DNA of 64,000 bases, taken from Shinella yambaruensis. Lineage in GTDB: Bacteria > Pseudomonadota > Alphaproteobacteria > Rhizobiales > Rhizobiaceae. Under the pieces are notes generated by a model, which was given only the letters and a program-made list of their open reading frames with translations, was not told where the DNA came from and ran no database searches. The position numbers and the translations under genes are program-made. Every line of letters starts with the position of its first letter. The first letter of the stretch is position 1. The stretch spans positions 62,001-126,000 of the forward strand of contig NZ_JALJCK010000009.1 of the NCBI RefSeq assembly GCF_022899355.1, in the 5' to 3' direction. This document shows, piece by piece, positions 1,485-11,375 of this stretch.

Positions 1485-1937
1485 TTAACGCCTAATTCGC
1501 GTCGACAGAATGATCGACGACAGCGTGCGCTCCACGCCGTCGATCGCGCCGATGCGGTCGATCAGGTGGTCGAGTTCGGCGATCGATGCCGCCTCGACCA
1601 CGGCGATCAGGTCGAAACTGCCGCTGACCGAATGCAGCGTGCGCACGGCCGAGATGGCGTGCAGTTCCGTCGTGATGCGCGCCAAGGTCTTCGGCGCGAT
1701 GGTGATCAGCACATGCGCCTTCACCATGCCGCTCTCATAGGCGTCCGAAAGCTTGACGCCATAGCCGGCGATCACGCCGTCCCGCTCCAGCCGGTCGATC
1801 TTCGCCTGCACGGTCGTGCGCGACAGGCCCAGTTTGCGGGCGATCGTCGCGGTCTGCTCGCGGGCGTTCTCGCTGAGGATGGCAAGCAGCTCGCGATCCT
1901 TGGCGCCTAGCGTCGAAATGCTCATTTCTACCGTCAT
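1485..1937 (-). CDS. Lrp/AsnC family transcriptional regulator
   Basis: A 150-residue protein with the Lrp/AsnC layout. An N-terminal winged helix-turn-helix spans about residues 15-62 (LLAILSENAREQTATIARKL, then a recognition helix with SRTTVQAKI). A C-terminal RAM ligand-binding domain follows from about residue 75 (VKAHVLITI). It is divergent from the L-lysine 6-dehydrogenase gene. Lrp-type regulators in this position usually sense the amino acid whose catabolic gene they control, so lysine-responsive control is likely but inferred. A second in-frame ATG at 1925 is an alternative start, and neither start has a strong ribosome binding site. Confidence 0.88.
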   Translation of the reverse strand: MTVEMSISTLGAKDRELLAILSENAREQTATIARKLGLSRTTVQAKIDRLERDGVIAGYGVKLSDAYESGMVKAHVLITIAPKTLARITTELHAISAVRTLHSVSGSFDLIAVVEAASIAELDHLIDRIGAIDGVERTLSSIILSTRIRR

Positions 1938-1950
1938 TCTGCCGATATCG

Positions 1951-1962
1951 ATAATGTATTAT
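1951..1962. promoter_or_regulatory. AT-rich palindrome between lrp and lysine 6-dehydrogenase
   Basis: The 12-mer ATAATGTATTAT has 5-base inverted arms around a 2-base centre and sits in the 100-base divergent gap. An AT-rich dyad here is a plausible binding site for the adjacent Lrp-type regulator, or part of a promoter. This is inferred from position and symmetry only. Confidence 0.35.
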
Positions 1963-2037
1963 GCCAGATGTGGCGCTTTAAATCGACAGCCTTCACCCTC
2001 AAAATATCAACATCAATTCATGCCGGAGGGAAATCAC

Positions 2038-3138
2038 ATGAAGGACATCGTCGTCATCGGCGCAGGCAAGATCGGCTCGACCATCGCCCGCATGCTGGCT
2101 CACAGCGGGGATTACCGCGTCACCGTCGCCGACCGTTCGGACGAGCAGCTTGCTGCCATCGAGCGCCATGCTGCCGTTTCGACCGCCGTCGTCGACATTG
2201 CCGACGGTGCCGCGCTCCGCGCCCTTCTCGCCGGCAAGTTCGCCGTTCTCTCTGCCGCGCCCTACCACCTGACCGTCGCCATCGCGGAAGCCGCCGCCGA
2301 TGCGGGCTTGCACTATCTCGATCTCACGGAAGACGTCGAATCCACCCGCCAGGTCAAGCGCATCGCGGAAAATGCCAGGACGGCCTTCATCCCGCAGTGC
2401 GGCCTTGCACCGGGCTTCATCTCCATCGTCGCCAACGACCTTGCCAGCCGCTTCGATTCGCTCGAAAGCGTGCGCATGCGCGTCGGCGCCCTGCCGCAGT
2501 ACCCGTCCAATGCGCTCAACTACAACCTCACCTGGAGCACGGACGGCGTCATCAACGAATATATCGAGCCCTGCGAAGCCATCGTCGAAAGCGCGCTGAT
2601 CGAGGTTCCGGCCCTCGAAGAGCGCGAGGAATTCTCGCTCGACGGCGTCACCTACGAGGCCTTCAACACCTCGGGCGGCCTCGGCACGCTCTGCGATACG
2701 CTGAAGGGCAAGGTGCGCACGCTGAACTACAAGACGATCCGCTATCCCGGCCATGCCGCCATCATGAAGGCGCTCTTGAACGACCTCGGCCTGCGCCACC
2801 GCCGCGAAGTCCTGAAGGACATCTTCGAAAACGCCCTGCCGACCACCACGCAGGACGTCGTCATCATCTTCGTGACCGTCTCGGGCCGCAAGGGCGGCCG
2901 CCTGATCCAGGAAACCTACGCCAACAAGGTCTACAGCGCCCCGGTCGCCGGCAGCCTGCATTCCGCCATCCAGATCACCACGGCCGGCTCTATCTGCGCC
3001 GTGCTCGACATGCTCGCCGACGGTTCGCTGCGCGCCGAGGGTTTCGTCCGCCAGGAGGAAATCGCCCTCGACACCTTCCTCGCCAACCGTTTCGGCCACT
3101 ACTACGCCCAGGAAAACCACGGCGCCCGCGCCGCCTGA
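2038..3138 (+). CDS. lysDH: L-lysine 6-dehydrogenase (saccharopine dehydrogenase-like family)
   Basis: A 366-residue NAD(P)-dependent enzyme with a Rossmann motif near the start (VIGAGKIGSTIA, residues 5-16). The motifs DLTEDVEST, QCGLAPGF and ALPQYPSNALNYNLTWSTDG closely match the characterised Agrobacterium L-lysine 6-dehydrogenase as I remember it. That enzyme oxidatively deaminates the side chain of lysine to 2-aminoadipate 6-semialdehyde, which cyclises to piperideine-6-carboxylate. The start is the ATG preceded by GGAGGG at 2025-2030. Saccharopine dehydrogenase proper is less likely: no lysine-ketoglutarate reductase is nearby, and the adjacent operon encodes all the steps downstream of the semialdehyde. 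Confidence 0.88.
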   Translation: MKDIVVIGAGKIGSTIARMLAHSGDYRVTVADRSDEQLAAIERHAAVSTAVVDIADGAALRALLAGKFAVLSAAPYHLTVAIAEAAADAGLHYLDLTEDVESTRQVKRIAENARTAFIPQCGLAPGFISIVANDLASRFDSLESVRMRVGALPQYPSNALNYNLTWSTDGVINEYIEPCEAIVESALIEVPALEEREEFSLDGVTYEAFNTSGGLGTLCDTLKGKVRTLNYKTIRYPGHAAIMKALLNDLGLRHRREVLKDIFENALPTTTQDVVIIFVTVSGRKGGRLIQETYANKVYSAPVAGSLHSAIQITTAGSICAVLDMLADGSLRAEGFVRQEEIALDTFLANRFGHYYAQENHGARAA

Positions 3139-3153
3139 TCTTCCAGACCCTTC

Positions 3154-3183
3154 AAACGCCTCGGTGCAATGCCGGGGCGTTTT
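3154..3183 (+). terminator. Rho-independent terminator of lysDH
   Basis: An 11-bp stem (left arm 3154-3164, right arm 3172-3182, one G-U pair) with a 7-base loop ends in a short T tract. It lies 15 bases after the lysDH stop codon. Confidence 0.75.
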
Positions 3184-3244
3184 CGCATCTGTGGCCCAGC
3201 CGCGGGGAAGAAGAGAACGCCGGAAAGGCGCGGACCATAAAAAT

Positions 3245-3268
3245 GGGGCCTCTTGCGAGGCCCCTTTT
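3245..3268. terminator. Bidirectional terminator between lysDH and the lysine operon
   Basis: A perfect 8-bp stem (GGGGCCTC / GAGGCCCC, 3245-3252 and 3257-3264) with a TTGC loop. It has T residues on the right for plus-strand transcripts and an A tract on the left, which becomes T residues for the minus-strand operon ending at 3293. It can therefore serve both convergent units. Confidence 0.8.
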
Positions 3269-3292
3269 CTTTTGCGGGTTACCGGGCGTGGC

Positions 3293-4531
<1,239 letters not shown>

Positions 4532-6055
4532 CTACTCGATGTCGAAGGAAACGCCCTGGGCGAGCGGCAGGGCCTTCGAATAGTTCACCGTGTTGGTGGC
4601 GCGGCGCATATAGGCCTTCCAGGCGTCGGAGCCGCTCTCGCGGCCGCCGCCGGTTTCCTTCTCGCCGCCGAAGGCACCGCCGATTTCCGCGCCCGAGGTG
4701 CCGATGTTGACATTGGCGATGCCGCAATCCGAGCCGTCGGCGGCGAGGAAGCGCTCGGCTTCCTGCATGTTCAGCGTGAAGATCGACGAGGAGAGGCCGG
4801 CCGAAACGGCATTGTGATCGTCCAGGACGGCGTCGAAGTCGGAATACTTCATGACGTAGAGGATCGGCGCGAAGGTCTCTTCGAGAACCGGGCCGGCCTG
4901 CTTCGGCATTTCGACGATGGCGGGCTTGACGTAATAGGCCGTTTCCTTGCCGGCTTCGGCAACGCGTTCGCCGCCGGTGACGGTGCCGCCTTCGGCCTTG
5001 GCGGCTGCCAACGCCTTCTGCATGCCGTCGAAGGCCTGCTTGTCGACGAGCGGGCCGACGAGTGCCGAGGTTTCCAGCGGGTTGCCGACGGAAACGCTGG
5101 TATAGGCCTTCTTCAGGCGCGGCACGAGCTGGTCGTAGACGCTGTCATGCACGAAGAGGCGGCGCAGCGTCGTGCAGCGCTGGCCGGCGGTGCCCATGGC
5201 GCCGAAGGCAATCGCGCGCAGCGCCATATCGAGGTCGGCCGAGGGGCAGACGATGCCGGCATTGTTGCCGCCGAGCTCGAGGATCGAGCGGGCGAAGCGC
5301 TTGGCAAGACGCGGGCCGACTTCCTTGCCCATGCGGGTGGAGCCGGTGGCCGAGACGAGCGCGACCTTGCGGTTGTCGACAAGGGCTTCGCCGATGGCGC
5401 GGTCGCCGATGAGAACCTGCGACAGGTTCGCCGGGGCGTCGCCGAAGCGAGAAAGGGCGCGCTCGAAGATCGCCTGCGATGCAAGGGCGGTCAGCGGGGT
5501 CTTTTCGGAGGGTTTCCAGACGATGGAATTGCCGGCGACGATGGCGAGCGCGGCGTTCCACGACCAGACCGCGACCGGGAAGTTGAAGGCCGAGATGATG
5601 CCGACGACGCCGAGCGGGTGCCAGGTCTCCATCATGCGGTGGCCGGGGCGTTCGGTGGCGATCGTCAGGCCGTAGAGCTGGCGGGAGAGGCCGACGGCGA
5701 AATCGCAGATGTCGATCATTTCCTGCACTTCGCCAAGACCCTCGGAGGTGATCTTGCCGGCCTCGATGGAGACGAGGCGGCCGAGATCGGCCTTGGCGGC
5801 GCGCAGTTCCTCGCCGAGCAGGCGGACGAGTTCGCCGCGCTTGGGGGCGGGAACGAGACGCCAGGCCTTGAAGGCTTCGTGGGCGGCGTCGATCGCCTTG
5901 TCGGTATCAGTGGCCGAAACGGTCTTCAGCTTGCCGATCTCCTCGCCGGTGACCGGGCTGTAGGAGGCCATGTCGCCACCCTGCCAAGCGCTGCGTGCGA
6001 TGCCGAGCTTGTCGAGAAGGGTTTCGGTTTCCTGTTTCACGTCGACTTTCGTCAT
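4532..6055 (-). CDS. amaB: L-aminoadipate-semialdehyde / piperideine-6-carboxylate dehydrogenase (ALDH7 family)
   Basis: A 507-residue aldehyde dehydrogenase. The general base Glu260 (LELGGNNAG) and the nucleophile Cys294 in GTAGQRCTTLRRLFVH are characteristic of the antiquitin/ALDH7 branch, which oxidises 2-aminoadipate 6-semialdehyde to 2-aminoadipate with NAD. The N-terminal NAD-binding part includes AFNFPVAVWSWN and WKPSEKTPLTA. It is the third gene of the lysine operon, 21 bases after the flavoprotein gene, and it takes the product of the lysine 6-dehydrogenase encoded on the opposite strand. The name follows the Pseudomonas putida AmaB convention. Confidence 0.9.
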   Translation of the reverse strand: MTKVDVKQETETLLDKLGIARSAWQGGDMASYSPVTGEEIGKLKTVSATDTDKAIDAAHEAFKAWRLVPAPKRGELVRLLGEELRAAKADLGRLVSIEAGKITSEGLGEVQEMIDICDFAVGLSRQLYGLTIATERPGHRMMETWHPLGVVGIISAFNFPVAVWSWNAALAIVAGNSIVWKPSEKTPLTALASQAIFERALSRFGDAPANLSQVLIGDRAIGEALVDNRKVALVSATGSTRMGKEVGPRLAKRFARSILELGGNNAGIVCPSADLDMALRAIAFGAMGTAGQRCTTLRRLFVHDSVYDQLVPRLKKAYTSVSVGNPLETSALVGPLVDKQAFDGMQKALAAAKAEGGTVTGGERVAEAGKETAYYVKPAIVEMPKQAGPVLEETFAPILYVMKYSDFDAVLDDHNAVSAGLSSSIFTLNMQEAERFLAADGSDCGIANVNIGTSGAEIGGAFGGEKETGGGRESGSDAWKAYMRRATNTVNYSKALPLAQGVSFDIE

Positions 6056-6076
6056 GGGGTGTCTCCCTGTCTGTTT

Positions 6077-7495
6077 TTAGAATGTGATGGTGCCGAGCGG
6101 GCCCGGCGAGGTGATGGTTTTCAGCCCGGCCGCAAGCGCGCGGAGCTTTTCCGGGGTGTATCTGTCGCAGAAGGCCTGGTTCTTGCGGCCGATGGCGTGT
6201 TCCGCGCTGAAGCTGCCGCCGAACTGCTCGACCGCGACGGTGAAGACCCATTCGCGCAGGTCCGCCTCGAAATCGGGATCGGCAAGCCGCGGGTCGTCCT
6301 TCGCGACGACCAGGTTGAAGTGCACGCCGCCATCGCCGATATGGCCGAAGTCGCAGATCGTGACGTCCTCGAAATGGTCCGGCATTTCCGCCTTCATATG
6401 GGCGAGGAAGGGCATGATGTCACCCCGGCGGAAGGACAGATCGAAGGCGATCAATCGCCCGCGATGCTTCACGCCCTCCGAGAGCGCATGGCGCAGCGCC
6501 CAGATCTCGTGCGGTTGGCCGACGAAGGCGTCGGCGAGCGGTGCGTCCTCGCGCTCCCAGATCGCGGCCAGCACCTCTTCCAGCACCGCGTCGAGCGGCT
6601 GCTCGCCCGCGCGCGGCGGGGTGGCGCGGGAGATTTCCGCGAGGATGACGAAGCCGGGCACCACGCCGCCCTGGAAGGGATTGCGCAGCGACGGCACATG
6701 GTCGAGCGCGGCGGCGACGGCGTTGCCGGACATGCCCTCGAAGGCCGAGAGATAGCTGCCGAGCGCGTCTTCCATGGCGACGAGCAGCGTCGCGACCTGG
6801 TCTGCCGAGGCGGGCACGAGCAGGGCGGTGGCGGATTGTTTCGGGGCGGGTTCGAGGTTCAGCACGCATTCGGTGACGACGCCGAAGGCGCCCGACGTGC
6901 CGATGAAGAGCTGCTTCCAGTCGACACCGGTATTGTTCTTGCGCAGGTCTGAGGAAAGGTCGAGCACGGTGCCGGCCTCGTCGGCGAGCACCACGGTGAG
7001 GCCGAGAACATTGCGGCGCACGTCGCCGTAGCGCAGGAACCGCGAGCCGCCGGTGTTCGTCGCGATCATGCCGCCGAGGCGCGGGTCTGCGCCGAGGTCG
7101 ATGGGGAAGAACAGGCCGCTCTCTTCCAGCCGGCCGTTGAGGTCGGAAAGGCGCAGGCCCGCCCCGGCCCTGACCGAGCGGTTCACCCGGTCGAGGTCGA
7201 AGGGGGCGGTCAGGCGGTTGAGGCTGAGCACGCCCTGACGGCCGCTCCCGTCGGGCGTCGAGCCGGAAACGAGGCCGGTATTGCCGGACTGCGGCACGAG
7301 CGCGATGGCGTTCCGCACGCAATAGGAGACGATGGCAGAGGCCTCCGCCGTCGTGGCCGGGCGGGCGACGAAGGCGGCGCGGCCCCTGTCGTAGCGTGCG
7401 CCGGTCTCGTAGGCGGCCATGTCGGCTTCTTCGGTGAGAAGACCCTTCTCGCCGGCAAGGCCCTTCAGCGCTTCGATATGGCGTGCCTCGATCAT
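6077..7495 (-). CDS. FAD-linked oxidase, probable D-2-hydroxyglutarate dehydrogenase
   Basis: A 472-residue two-domain FAD-binding oxidase (FAD_binding_4 plus FAD-oxidase C). The FAD domain shows PQSGNTGLVSGSTP and GADPRLGGMIATNTGGSR. The C-terminal domain has the metal/substrate motif HIGDGGVHFN and the terminal SAEHAIGRKN. Relatives oxidise D-lactate, D-2-hydroxyglutarate or glycolate. It follows hglS by 11 bases and precedes amaB by 21, and HglS makes D-2-hydroxyglutarate, so oxidation of that product to 2-oxoglutarate is the likely role. The start is the ATG at 7495 behind GGAAG overlapping the hglS stop region. A longer in-frame start at 7546 would run into hglS. Confidence 0.87.
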   Translation of the reverse strand: MIEARHIEALKGLAGEKGLLTEEADMAAYETGARYDRGRAAFVARPATTAEASAIVSYCVRNAIALVPQSGNTGLVSGSTPDGSGRQGVLSLNRLTAPFDLDRVNRSVRAGAGLRLSDLNGRLEESGLFFPIDLGADPRLGGMIATNTGGSRFLRYGDVRRNVLGLTVVLADEAGTVLDLSSDLRKNNTGVDWKQLFIGTSGAFGVVTECVLNLEPAPKQSATALLVPASADQVATLLVAMEDALGSYLSAFEGMSGNAVAAALDHVPSLRNPFQGGVVPGFVILAEISRATPPRAGEQPLDAVLEEVLAAIWEREDAPLADAFVGQPHEIWALRHALSEGVKHRGRLIAFDLSFRRGDIMPFLAHMKAEMPDHFEDVTICDFGHIGDGGVHFNLVVAKDDPRLADPDFEADLREWVFTVAVEQFGGSFSAEHAIGRKNQAFCDRYTPEKLRALAAGLKTITSPGPLGTITF

Positions 7496-7506
7496 GCGCT
7501 CTTCCG

Positions 7507-8904
7507 TCACTCCGCAGCGGCAGCCATGTTGACGATGCCGAGGCACATTTCAAGCGACGCGCGCTGGATGGCGGCATAGTGGGCGAATTCGTCGAGGACG
7601 GCGCTGCCGAGATCGCGTTCGAACATCACCTGGTTCGGGCTGGCGACGAAGTCCTGGGTCGCGTCGTCGCCGAGGTTCGACTGGAAGATGCCCGCGGCGC
7701 TGACCGGCAGGAAATCCTCGTAGACGATCGGGTCGAAGCGGATGAGGCCGGCTTCGATCGCCGTTTCGAGATCGGCGTTGCGGCCGGTGACGGACTTGCC
7801 CTTCTCCGTCAGGCAATAGGTGAAATAGCCGAGGCCCGCCTTGCGGATGCCGTCCCAGTCATCCGGGAAAGCCTTGAAGACGTCGGCGAGCGCGGCCTCG
7901 TATTCGGCGGCGTTGGAGCCATCGGCGGCCGGGCGCACGCGGGCGCGCGTCTCGGTGAGCAGCCGGTCGTAGAGCGCGCGGCCCTTCGGCGTCAGCGCCA
8001 CGCCGCGCTGCTCGATCTCGCCGAAGCGGGCCGTGTGGGAGCCTTGCTGCCAGGCGCCGTCGGCACCGATGAAGGAGACGGCCTCCTCCAGCGCCTTGAA
8101 CGAGGTCTGGCGCAGGAGGATCGGGCAGGTGCGGGTCGGCGGGCCCTCGACGACGGCCTTCGGGGCGATGCCCTCTTCCGGCATGCGGGCCTGTACCTTG
8201 TCGATGTCGAGTGTGCGCGGCGTCAGGTGGTTGATGTGCGGACCCTTGAAGGAGACGACGTCGGCGATCAGGCGATGCGCGTCGTGCAAGCGCTTATACA
8301 TGCCGGCGCTGACGATGGCCTGGTCGTGCCAGCGGAAGGTTTCCAGCACTTCGGTGACGAAGCGGGCGGCATGGGCTTCACCGAGACCGCCGTCACGCTC
8401 AGCCTTCTCGACGAGCCTGACGGCCTCGTCGGTGAAGATCTTTCGTGCGGCGAGCACGTCGGCCGCTTCTTCACGCAGCTTTTCGTCGGCGATGAGATCG
8501 AGGCGCAGCAACGAGGTGAAGACACGGAACGGGTTGCGGCTGAGGCTTTCGGCGCCGACCGGGCGGAAGGCGGTGGAGTGCACGGGAACGCCGGCGGTGG
8601 AGAGGTCGTAGTAGCCGACCGGGAACATGCCCATGACGGCGAAGACGCGGCGCATCATGGAAAGCTCGCCCGGCGTGCCGAGGCGGATGGCGCCATGGCG
8701 TTCCTCGGAGATGCGCTCCAGCGTGTCGGTCGCCTCCAGGCGCCCCTTGAGGATGGGATCGGCGGCGAGCGTTTCCGCGTTCACCTCGGCCACCAGCGAC
8801 ATCAGCGTGCCATAGGCGGGAACCTCGTTGCGGTACATGGCGGACATCGCGGCGGAGAAATCCGCGCGGATCTTATCAGCGGAAACGTGCGAATTTGCGT
8901 TCAT
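7507..8904 (-). CDS. hglS: 2-oxoadipate dioxygenase/decarboxylase HglS (DUF1338, VOC fold)
   Basis: A 465-residue DUF1338 (YdcJ-type) protein. Members convert 2-oxoadipate with O2 and Fe(II) to D-2-hydroxyglutarate plus CO2. As I recall, the P. putida enzyme uses His70, His226 and a glutamate near 294 for metal and Arg74 for substrate. Here His70 and Arg74 fall in SEERHGAIR, His223 and His226 in GPHINHLTPR, and the glutamates in RFGEIEQRG at 296 and 298, so the catalytic set is present. It is the first gene of the operon hglS-flavoprotein-amaB-aminotransferase and is divergent from a LysR gene, its likely regulator. Confidence 0.9.
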   Translation of the reverse strand: MNANSHVSADKIRADFSAAMSAMYRNEVPAYGTLMSLVAEVNAETLAADPILKGRLEATDTLERISEERHGAIRLGTPGELSMMRRVFAVMGMFPVGYYDLSTAGVPVHSTAFRPVGAESLSRNPFRVFTSLLRLDLIADEKLREEAADVLAARKIFTDEAVRLVEKAERDGGLGEAHAARFVTEVLETFRWHDQAIVSAGMYKRLHDAHRLIADVVSFKGPHINHLTPRTLDIDKVQARMPEEGIAPKAVVEGPPTRTCPILLRQTSFKALEEAVSFIGADGAWQQGSHTARFGEIEQRGVALTPKGRALYDRLLTETRARVRPAADGSNAAEYEAALADVFKAFPDDWDGIRKAGLGYFTYCLTEKGKSVTGRNADLETAIEAGLIRFDPIVYEDFLPVSAAGIFQSNLGDDATQDFVASPNQVMFERDLGSAVLDEFAHYAAIQRASLEMCLGIVNMAAAAE

Positions 8905-8929
8905 GGGAGCGGTCTCATCCTGGTGTTGC

Positions 8930-8973
8930 GCAATTCCGGATGGAAAACCGCTTCACACTTTTCCGGGAATTGC
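8930..8973. promoter_or_regulatory. Dyad in the hglS/lysR divergent promoter region
   Basis: The arms GCAATTCCGG (8930-8939) and CCGGGAATTGC (8963-8973) form an inverted repeat with one bulged base and a 23-base spacer. They lie 26-69 bases upstream of the hglS start codon. The position suits an operator for the divergent LysR protein. Support is symmetry and position only. Confidence 0.4.
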
Positions 8974-9074
8974 TTTAGAAGGGGTGGAGGCCCTGATCAT
9001 TCTCAAAACGGATCATACCGGATCGTTTCTTCCCGCGATTGCGACCGTTCTGACTATGTTGATGCGAGGAAAGA

Positions 9075-9971
9075 ATGAAGCTCAGTCGTAGGCTGATCCC
9101 CGACGTCACCACGCTACAGGCGTTCGAATGCGCCGCGCGCCACGGCAGCTTCACGCAGGCGGCCCATGAGCTGAACCTCACCCAGAGCGCCGTCAGCCGT
9201 CAGATCAAGGACCTCGAGGAACAGCTCGGCGTGCTCTTGTTCGAGCGCGTGCGCCAGCGCGTGGTGCTCTCCGACGATGGCCGCCGTTTCCTGCCGGAAG
9301 TGCGCAAGCTGCTGCACCAGACGGAGGAGACCATGCTGCGCGCCATGGCGTCGGCCTCCTCCGAGCACAGCCTTTCCATCGCGACGCTGCCGACCTTCGG
9401 CAGCCGCTGGCTGACGCCGCGCATTCCCGGCTTTCTCGCGGAAAATCCCGGCACGATCATCAACATCGCCTCGCGCTCGGCGCCGTTCGATTTCGACGAG
9501 GAGAATTTCGACCTCGCGATCCACTACGGCCAGCCGGTCTGGGCGCGGGCCGCCTGCACCTATCTGTGCAGCGAGGTCATCCTGCCCGCGGCAAGCCCGG
9601 AGCTGGTGAAATCCTGGAACCTTGCCGAACCGAAGGACCTGGAACGGGCGCCGCTCCTGCATCTTGCGACGCGCCCGAAGCTCTGGGCGCAATGGTTCGA
9701 GCTGAACGGCGGCTCGGCGGATACCGCCTATCGCGGCCATCGCTTCGACCAGTTCTCCATGGTCATCGAGACGGCCGTCGCGGGGCTCGGCTTCGCGCTG
9801 CTGCCGCACTACCTGATCGAGCAGGAGCTGGCGAGCGGCCGGCTTGCCGTCGTCTTCGACCGGCCGATGGAGACGGAGAACAGCTATTATCTCGTCGTGC
9901 CGGAAGGAAAGCTCGAAAACCCGCTGAGCCAGGCATTTCGCAGCTGGATTTCCAAGCAGGTCCCGGCATAG
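9075..9971 (+). CDS. LysR family transcriptional regulator (GcvA-like)
   Basis: A 298-residue LysR-type regulator. The N-terminal HTH spans residues 12-70 (LQAFECAARHGSFTQAAHEL, then TQSAVSRQIKDLEEQLGVLLFER). A periplasmic-binding-protein-like effector domain runs from about residue 92 to 295. It is close to the GcvA/AmpR branch. It diverges from hglS across a 170-base gap, the classic arrangement for LysR control of a neighbouring catabolic operon, so lysine or 2-aminoadipate/2-oxoadipate response is a reasonable inference. The start ATG has GAGGAAAGA just upstream. Confidence 0.9.
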   Translation: MKLSRRLIPDVTTLQAFECAARHGSFTQAAHELNLTQSAVSRQIKDLEEQLGVLLFERVRQRVVLSDDGRRFLPEVRKLLHQTEETMLRAMASASSEHSLSIATLPTFGSRWLTPRIPGFLAENPGTIINIASRSAPFDFDEENFDLAIHYGQPVWARAACTYLCSEVILPAASPELVKSWNLAEPKDLERAPLLHLATRPKLWAQWFELNGGSADTAYRGHRFDQFSMVIETAVAGLGFALLPHYLIEQELASGRLAVVFDRPMETENSYYLVVPEGKLENPLSQAFRSWISKQVPA

Positions 9972-10091
9972 CATTTCGGCGGCCGATCATGCGGCGGGGG
10001 CATGACCCCGTTCTCATTTTTTGCTTTAGTCGTCCTGCCGCATGGCCGATTGTGCGGCGAGACACCCTCCTCCTCGGAAAAGATTGACGCC

Positions 10092-11375
10092 ATGCTCAAC
10101 GACCCGCGCTCCCATGGCCTTTGGGAGATGACCGCTCCGCCCGCCCCCGAAACCGTCGCCTTTTCCGGCAGGGCGGAGGCGGATGTCGTCATCGTCGGCG
10201 GCGGGTATACCGGTTTTTCGACGGCGCTGCATCTGGCCGAGCGCGGCACGCGGGTCGTCCTGCTCGAAGGGGCGGAGATCGGCTATGGCGGCTCGGGCCG
10301 CAATGTCGGCCTCGTCAATGCCGGCATGTGGGTGATGCCCGACGAACTGCCCGGCGTGCTCGGCGACCTGTACGGCAGCCGGCTGCTGGAGCTTCTCGGC
10401 AATGCGCCGCGCGCCGTGTTCGACCTCGTCGAGAAGCATGCGATCGACTGCGAGATCAACCCGGCCGGCACGCTGCATTGCGCCGTCGGCCAATCCGGTC
10501 TCGACGAACTGAAGCAGCGCGCCGAGCAATGGGTCCGCCGCGGCGCGCCGGTACGCCTGCTGGACGCGGCCGAGACGGCGGCGAAGGTGGGCACGGAGGC
10601 CTATGCGGGCTCGCTTCTCGACCTGCGTGCCGGCACGATCCAGCCGCTCGCCTATGCGCGCGGTCTTGCCCGCGCGGCGATTGCGGCCGGTGCTGCCGTC
10701 TTCACGGCAAGCCCGGTGACGGGTGCGGAGCGGACGGGAAAACGCTGGACGGTGAAGACCGCGCGCGGCTCCGTCACGGCGGACTGGGTGGTCGTCGCCA
10801 CCAATGCCTATACGGTGGCACCCTGGAACGAGGTGCGCGCCGAGCTTGTACACCTGCCCTATTTCAACTTCGCCACCGTGCCGCTTTCGCCCGAGATGCA
10901 GGCGAAGATCCTGCCGGAGCGACAGGGGGCCTGGGACACGAAGGACGTGCTCTCCTCCTTCCGCTTCGACAAGCGCGGCCGGCTGGTGTTCGGCAGCGTC
11001 GGCGCGCTGCGCGGCACGGGCACCGGCATCCACAAGGCCTGGGCGCGCCGCGCGCTGAAAAAGCTCTTCCCCGCGATCGGCGACGTCGCCTTCGAGGCGG
11101 AATGGTACGGCAAGATCGGCATGACGACGGACAACCTGCCGCGCTTTCACCGCCTTGCCGAGAACGTCATCGGCTTTTCCGGCTACAATGGCCGTGGCAT
11201 CGCGCCGGGCACGGTCTTCGGCCGCACGCTGGCCGCGCTCATTTCCGGCGAGATCGCCGAGATGGACCTGCCTTTGCCGGTGAGCGCGCCCGAGGCGCAA
11301 TCCTTCCGCTCGATGCGCGAGGGCTACTATGAGCTCGGCGCGCAGGTCGCCCATTTCGCCGGCGCGCGTTTCTGA
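10092..11375 (+). CDS. FAD-dependent amine/amino-acid oxidoreductase (DAO family, PuuB/OrdL-like)
   Basis: A 427-residue DAO-family flavoprotein with an N-terminal dinucleotide fold (VVIVGGGYTGFSTALHLAERG), a second FAD segment (EIGYGGSGRNVGLVNAG) and a C-terminal FSGYNGRGIAPGT loop. Relatives include gamma-glutamylputrescine oxidase (PuuB) and glycine/D-amino-acid oxidases. The ATG at 10092 is preferred over the longer frame from 10002, because the FAD motif then starts about 30 residues in and a GGAAAAG element precedes it. It stands downstream of the lysine LysR gene on the same strand but is separated by 120 bases. The substrate is unknown. Confidence 0.82.
   Translation: MLNDPRSHGLWEMTAPPAPETVAFSGRAEADVVIVGGGYTGFSTALHLAERGTRVVLLEGAEIGYGGSGRNVGLVNAGMWVMPDELPGVLGDLYGSRLLELLGNAPRAVFDLVEKHAIDCEINPAGTLHCAVGQSGLDELKQRAEQWVRRGAPVRLLDAAETAAKVGTEAYAGSLLDLRAGTIQPLAYARGLARAAIAAGAAVFTASPVTGAERTGKRWTVKTARGSVTADWVVVATNAYTVAPWNEVRAELVHLPYFNFATVPLSPEMQAKILPERQGAWDTKDVLSSFRFDKRGRLVFGSVGALRGTGTGIHKAWARRALKKLFPAIGDVAFEAEWYGKIGMTTDNLPRFHRLAENVIGFSGYNGRGIAPGTVFGRTLAALISGEIAEMDLPLPVSAPEAQSFRSMREGYYELGAQVAHFAGARF

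Follow-up and report, generated by a model that had tools for sequence, protein, structure and literature searches.

Which route brings lysine to the hydroxyglutarate synthase HglS in a rhizobial genome that encodes HglS close to a probable L-lysine 6-dehydrogenase (LysDH)? We addressed this question in a stretch of 64,000 nucleotides of Shinella yambaruensis (Rhizobiaceae; assembly GCF_022899355.1, 6.87 Mb in 34 contigs; contig NZ_JALJCK010000009.1, positions 62,001 to 126,000), hereafter the window, in which coordinates without a label are given. An initial annotation had listed five genes at 2038..8904, and a frame check of the window found all five open frames in place. The locus is probably a degradation cluster for both lysine and pipecolate with one shared exit. 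A single locus, open to testing, would then bring together two probable ways in and one way out.

Genes of the cluster and the proposed pathway

HglS, the 2-oxoadipate dioxygenase/decarboxylase (7507..8904, minus strand), scores 752.9 bits against the curated model NF049974 (cut-off 550), aligns over almost its full length with the solved structure of hydroxyglutarate synthase, 6w1g (E-value 4.7e-167) and is 97% identical to HglS of Shinella granuli. It retains the metal triad H70, H226 and E296 as well as R74, V401 and S402, all of which are residues of the P. putida enzyme; a His-His-Glu metal triad, Arg74 and a Val-Ser pair are the criteria for HglS given in the consulted part of PMC7286885. 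The protein likely acts on 2-oxoadipate. The AmaB-type L-piperidine-6-carboxylate / 2-aminoadipate semialdehyde dehydrogenase (4532..6055, minus strand) also exceeds its curated model (NF050084, 824 bits, cut-off 730), and its best solved matches include 6dbb, 6rtr and structures of alpha-aminoadipic semialdehyde dehydrogenase. Between these two genes is encoded an FAD-linked 2-hydroxyacid dehydrogenase (6077..7495, minus strand), proposed here as a divergent D-2-hydroxyglutarate dehydrogenase.

The last gene of the run encodes a class I aminotransferase of the AatB type (3293..4528, minus strand), the proposed 2-aminoadipate transaminase, which matches 6f35 ("Aspartate aminotransferase B") with 747.6 bits and has its best NCBIfam score (563.9, cut-off 617) with a model for an aspartate transaminase. 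Its counterpart in the S. meliloti hglS operon is 80% identical to it and differs from 6f35 at only 5 of 410 residues, and AatB is therefore the aminotransferase of that operon; a pathway role in lysine degradation is thus suggested for an enzyme named for aspartate. The gaps within the four-gene run are 11, 21 and 3 bp from hglS onwards.

The gene for the probable LysDH (2038..3138, plus strand) starts with an ATG preceded by a GGAGGG stretch. Its product exceeds the cut-offs of the NADP-binding (PF03435, 82.6 bits) and C-terminal (PF16653, 77.7 bits) saccharopine dehydrogenase domains, and no model specific to lysine dehydrogenase matched in the NCBIfam scan. The top solved match, 3ic5, covers only the 118-residue N-terminal domain (E-value 7e-23); the best long match is 3abi (PH1688, residues 4-286, E-value 3e-20), which we take to be an archaeal L-lysine dehydrogenase, and human aminoadipic semialdehyde synthase follows behind both (E-value 1e-10). 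A predicted fold, meant to separate lysine dehydrogenase from other members of the superfamily, has low confidence, with a mean pLDDT (predicted local distance difference test) of 59.3. The gene is convergent to the four-gene run, and between them lies a terminator-like hairpin usable from both sides (3245..3264; eight pairs, seven of them G-C, with a T-rich stretch following the stem on both strands), so lysDH probably forms a separate transcription unit, in agreement with the earlier description of the other four genes as an operon. The hairpin itself is a pattern match only, as 19 terminator-like sites were found in 10.5 kb against 7.7 expected. A promoter scan of the locus found none (1.0 expected).

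Both ends of the locus carry a regulator gene. Divergent from lysDH is a probable local regulator of the Lrp/AsnC type (1485..1937, minus strand; Pfam AsnC_trans_reg and HTH_AsnC-type domains), whose best NCBIfam model is LysM with 81.7 bits (cut-off 180). A LysR-type regulator (9075..9971, plus strand; PF00126 and PF03466) is divergent from hglS. We compared 80 named hglS loci in relatives, and because these are the best 80 of the 142 found, all counts from them lean to close kin. The Lrp gene adjoins lysDH in 24 of the 24 loci that have lysDH, and in S. meliloti; LysR adjoins hglS in 73 of the 80 loci.

Beyond LysR is encoded an AmaA-like FAD oxidoreductase (10092..11375, plus strand), the proposed L-pipecolate oxidase of a second entry. 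Both genes fall just outside the interval of the initial annotation, which ended at hglS. The AmaA-like protein is the best match of the genome to NF050086 (467.3 bits over residues 7-421; the next scores 245.5) but was not filed as AmaA because the cut-off is 600. AmaA proteins over this cut-off were detected in 8 of 299 genomes of the phylum sample, and an AmaB relative is encoded near all eight (six in short loci, two in wider stretches). Taken together, the flanking LysR and AmaA-like genes and the Lrp gene beside lysDH most likely make two entries, one for lysine and one for pipecolate, that meet at AmaB. Lysine entry through LysDH, as first proposed, is likely, but it is probably not the only one. 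The Ldh_2 family, a possible source of DpkA, has seven paralogs in the genome that we could not tell apart, whereas OKR_DC_1, a family of lysine decarboxylases, gave no hit there.

In the proposed pathway, LysDH would turn L-lysine, by oxidation of its side chain, into 2-aminoadipate semialdehyde. This compound and piperideine-6-carboxylate interconvert, and the AmaA-like enzyme would produce the same intermediate from L-pipecolate. AmaB would convert it to 2-aminoadipate, the AatB-type enzyme would yield 2-oxoadipate by transamination, HglS would form D-2-hydroxyglutarate and the flavoenzyme would oxidise this to 2-oxoglutarate. Control is probably separate at the two ends, with Lrp acting on lysDH and LysR on the hglS operon, perhaps also on amaA. 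The gene order, the scores of HglS and AmaB above their curated cut-offs and the key residues of HglS are direct observations; we infer the substrates of LysDH, the aminotransferase, the flavoenzyme and the AmaA-like enzyme, as well as all of the regulation. For the five genes, the conversion of L-lysine to 2-oxoglutarate via HglS, as claimed in the initial annotation, remains the best interpretation. Its weakest step is the oxidation of D-2-hydroxyglutarate, because the residue that binds the distal carboxylate in the human enzyme is replaced (see below).

In P. putida, lysine reportedly reaches HglS through D-lysine and pipecolate, a route reported by Thompson in 2019 that comprises AmaA, AmaB, a LysR regulator and a D-2-hydroxyglutarate exit. 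The Shinella locus shares HglS with it and, by this description, probably these other components too, but adds lysDH as a direct entry for L-lysine and holds in the hglS operon an aminotransferase and a flavoenzyme that is GlcD-type rather than YdiJ. In Ruegeria pomeroyi, LysDH followed by a semialdehyde dehydrogenase is an established route (lysdh-aasadh), and the available text describes no link to HglS (PMC4334477); the two are likened here by description. Published fitness data for P. fluorescens and S. meliloti support a conserved function of hglS homologs, according to the consulted part of a 2020 paper (PMC7286885). Given this fitness statement and the established R. pomeroyi route, the earlier remark that the combination is little described was too strong. 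The annotation is sound, the cluster being a combination of known modules with known kinds of enzymes. The literature searched contained no pairing of lysine 6-dehydrogenase with hydroxyglutarate synthase, no pairing of aatB with meliloti and no description of a dual-entry cluster, and we make no claim that the cluster is unpublished. The available main text of PMC9007349 mentions neither hydroxyglutarate nor oxoadipate.

Recurrence of the arrangement and the place of lysDH

Relatives were counted at 50% identity or more, which leaves out AmaA relatives of 44-47% in loci L047, L061, L063 and L094, and "absent" means absent within about 10 kb on either side (the stretches of L055 and L109 are shorter). 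The full order AmaA-LysR / HglS-flavoenzyme-AmaB-aminotransferase / LysDH-Lrp was identified in 18 of the 80 loci, from Shinella, Mycoplana, Rhizobium and one Rhizobiales isolate. Close relatives share the arrangement, and such recurrence is not expected by chance. The dual-entry state needs one change on the HglS tree (support 64/88, a rough value from a bootstrap that had not settled), and the full arrangement fits a single origin. LysDH is encoded in 24 of the 80 loci, an AmaA relative in 40 and both in 18. The AmaA relative stands next to LysR-hglS in 36 loci (18 with lysDH and 18 without) and elsewhere in the stretch in four more.

Among 151 genomes of the family, hglS was found in 46 and a close lysDH in 45; both are present in 32, hglS only in 14, lysDH only in 13 and neither in 92 (odds ratio 16, p = 6e-12, not corrected for kinship). 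At an E-value of 1e-60, lysDH was detected in 61 of these genomes, and only the 45 with at least 64% identity were counted. Outside the family, two genomes of the phylum sample (G393 and G401) have hglS and lysDH, on different contigs. A tree of 43 chosen lysDH rows requires four changes in linkage to hglS, each made necessary by supported branches, with gains and losses indistinguishable; seven of the 24 linked loci are not on this tree (L038, L039, L041, L043, L048, L052 and L059). These results suggest that lysDH and hglS have come together on more than one occasion in rhizobia. One close lysDH match (70%; G096:C4:10553-11647) contains a stop codon.

Several observations weigh against a single lysine and pipecolate cluster. 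Among the 32 family genomes with both genes, hglS and lysDH lie within 10 kb of each other in only eight, farther apart on one contig in five and on different contigs, often of draft assemblies, in 19. Neither entry gene is present in the fetched stretch of 34 of the 80 hglS loci, neither type of exit dehydrogenase in 29, and eight loci lack a close AmaB (L049, L066, L074, L075, L078, L082, L083 and L088). The AmaA-like protein falls short of the AmaA cut-off, with 39-45% identity to the eight proteins that reach it, the closest solved aminotransferase bears an aspartate name, and the flavoenzyme has an alanine where human D2HGDH has Lys401. The loci without a close AmaB and those without either dehydrogenase type slightly lowered our confidence. 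Five of the former (L074, L075, L078, L082 and L088) retain HglS, the flavoenzyme and the aminotransferase in a row.

An unlikely alternative is that the cluster serves mainly pipecolate and D-lysine, with lysDH and Lrp as a neighbour for osmotic adjustment whose product would be reduced to pipecolate or kept as aminoadipate. It would explain why lysDH stands apart as a convergent unit with its own regulator, beyond a terminator-like hairpin, and why AmaA-LysR-hglS occurs without lysDH in 18 loci. The LysDH route of R. pomeroyi yields aminoadipate under high salt, as stated in the available text of PMC4334477, and the consulted part of PMC6397837 reports both an engineered strain that made pipecolate with lysDH and proC and pipecolate as a compatible solute for S. 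meliloti. A mere neighbour is, however, difficult to reconcile with the four linkage changes that the lysDH tree requires, with six of the 24 linked loci having no AmaA relative and with the joint presence of lysDH and hglS in 32 of the 151 family genomes.

The flavoenzyme and the D-2-hydroxyglutarate step

The most open point of the locus is the flavoenzyme. Its gene starts with an ATG (the longest frame begins at a GTG at 7546, overlapping hglS), and the protein carries PF01565 and PF02913. By sequence and by predicted fold, its nearest solved relatives are 3pm9 and human D2HGDH (6lpn). The predicted model is fair (80.5) but says little about the active site, because residues 431-446, including Glu432 and His433, are below 50.

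We compared residues by alignment with the human enzyme. All 48 aligned rows of the flavoenzyme conserve the positions of human Arg386, His434, His441, Glu475 and His476, the metal-binding and catalytic residues taken as criteria from PMC7801405; that of Asn443 is kept, and Thr390 is replaced by serine in all 48. The position of Lys401 holds alanine in 46 rows and glycine in two, which differs from the canonical enzyme, and Tyr432 corresponds to phenylalanine. According to the consulted part of PMC7801405, the distal carboxylate is bound by Lys401, a strictly conserved residue among orthologues, whereas GlcD and most D-lactate dehydrogenases have a small residue at this position and a hydrophobic one for Asn443. 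The residues of the flavoenzyme thus appear to be a mixture of the D2HGDH and GlcD/D-lactate dehydrogenase patterns. Within 20 rows, Arg357 is invariant and Arg356 nearly so, and it is our guess that this pair substitutes for the missing lysine.

The gene neighbourhood favours D-2-hydroxyglutarate as the substrate. The GlcD-type flavoenzyme is encoded in 44 of the 80 hglS loci, always directly after hglS and on the same strand, and a YdiJ-type gene in seven (counted with the FAD/Fe-S protein of Rhizobium sullae as query); no locus has both. Of the seven YdiJ-type genes, six come after the aminotransferase gene on the same strand; the remaining one, in L056, is more distant and lies on the opposite strand. 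This mutual exclusion is suggestive only, since related loci are not independent. The Shinella flavoenzyme itself matches the YdiJ model NF049975 over a short stretch only, with 42.8 bits (cut-off 1350), and no YdiJ match at an E-value of 1e-60 was found in the genome. Tentatively, and as a serious possibility, the flavoenzyme may represent an unrecognised class of D-2-hydroxyglutarate dehydrogenase for the exit from HglS, with Arg356-357 possibly replacing the lysine and YdiJ-type FAD/Fe-S proteins taking over this task in other rhizobial hglS loci. For this group, the role in D-2-hydroxyglutarate oxidation is predicted by gene neighbourhood and not by known substrate residues. A gene for an FAD-binding protein beside hglS on a Paracoccus plasmid (L147:11386-11883) matches only residues 7-97 of the flavoenzyme, as if truncated.

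It is improbable that the flavoenzyme uses another 2-hydroxyacid while a canonical enzyme encoded elsewhere in the genome oxidises D-2-hydroxyglutarate. In favour of this reading, alanine and phenylalanine stand at the positions of human Lys401 and Tyr432, at least one (L120) of six other FAD-oxidase_C members in the genome has the canonical lysine motif, and 29 of the loci do without a GlcD-type or YdiJ-type gene. On the other hand, the strict position directly after hglS in 44 of 44 loci, the lack of any locus combining the two types, the retained Asn443, the uniform serine for Thr390 and the nearby arginine pair all point back to a D-2-hydroxyglutarate dehydrogenase. Less probable still is that the first gene encodes some other member of the saccharopine dehydrogenase superfamily: only superfamily domains scored above their cut-offs and no enzyme-specific NCBIfam model matched, but lysDH is repeatedly linked to the hglS/amaB cluster, an AmaB relative adjoins it in a genome outside the family (L186) and its best long solved match, 3abi, is presumably an L-lysine dehydrogenase.

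Related replicons and flanking genes

On pSymB of S. meliloti Ak57 we found LysR, HglS, flavoenzyme, aldehyde dehydrogenase and aminotransferase genes in the same order as in Shinella. The Lrp-lysDH pair is on the same replicon, but lysDH lies about 250 kb from the hglS operon, and no AmaA relative was detected in the two stretches examined. Next after the S. meliloti hglS operon come a cupin gene and one annotated as "aspartate aminotransferase family protein" (L031:13828-15859). Rhizobium sullae pWSM1592_3 and R. rhizogenes pRiA4 encode LysR, HglS, aldehyde dehydrogenase, aminotransferase, LysDH and Lrp together, as in Shinella, but an FAD/Fe-S protein replaces the flavoenzyme and no AmaA relative was found in the stretches examined.

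The cluster is present on the Ri plasmid pRiA4 (L149), and it also occurs on the Ti plasmid pTiCFBP4996 of A. leguminum (L035). On pRiA4 it adjoins genes for FAD and 2Fe-2S oxidase-like proteins, RidA and transporters, with iaaH past lysDH-Lrp; on pTiCFBP4996, a decarboxylase gene annotated as lysA and amino-acid transporter genes lie between the hglS operon and lysDH. That these plasmid clusters serve a lysine-related opine is a guess.

An alignment of the window with 14 chosen relatives shows conserved blocks in the divergent control region between LysR and hglS (8905..9074). For the gap between the Lrp gene and lysDH, we saw no common Lrp site outside the Shinella group.

Several frames upstream of the locus matched no family and are probably antisense. 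The absence of transport genes from the cluster, as stated in the initial annotation, holds for 1485-11375, but some 7 kb upstream of lysDH a solute-binding protein is encoded (L116:12223-13251). A gene for a DadA-like FAD oxidoreductase (L116:17972-19240) starts just before the window and reaches window position 1240. Its product matches D-amino acid dehydrogenase weakly (149.9 bits, cut-off 383), and a relative is encoded in 14 of the 80 hglS loci, in 12 of them close to Lrp. The protein may be a D-amino acid enzyme that feeds the pipecolate branch.

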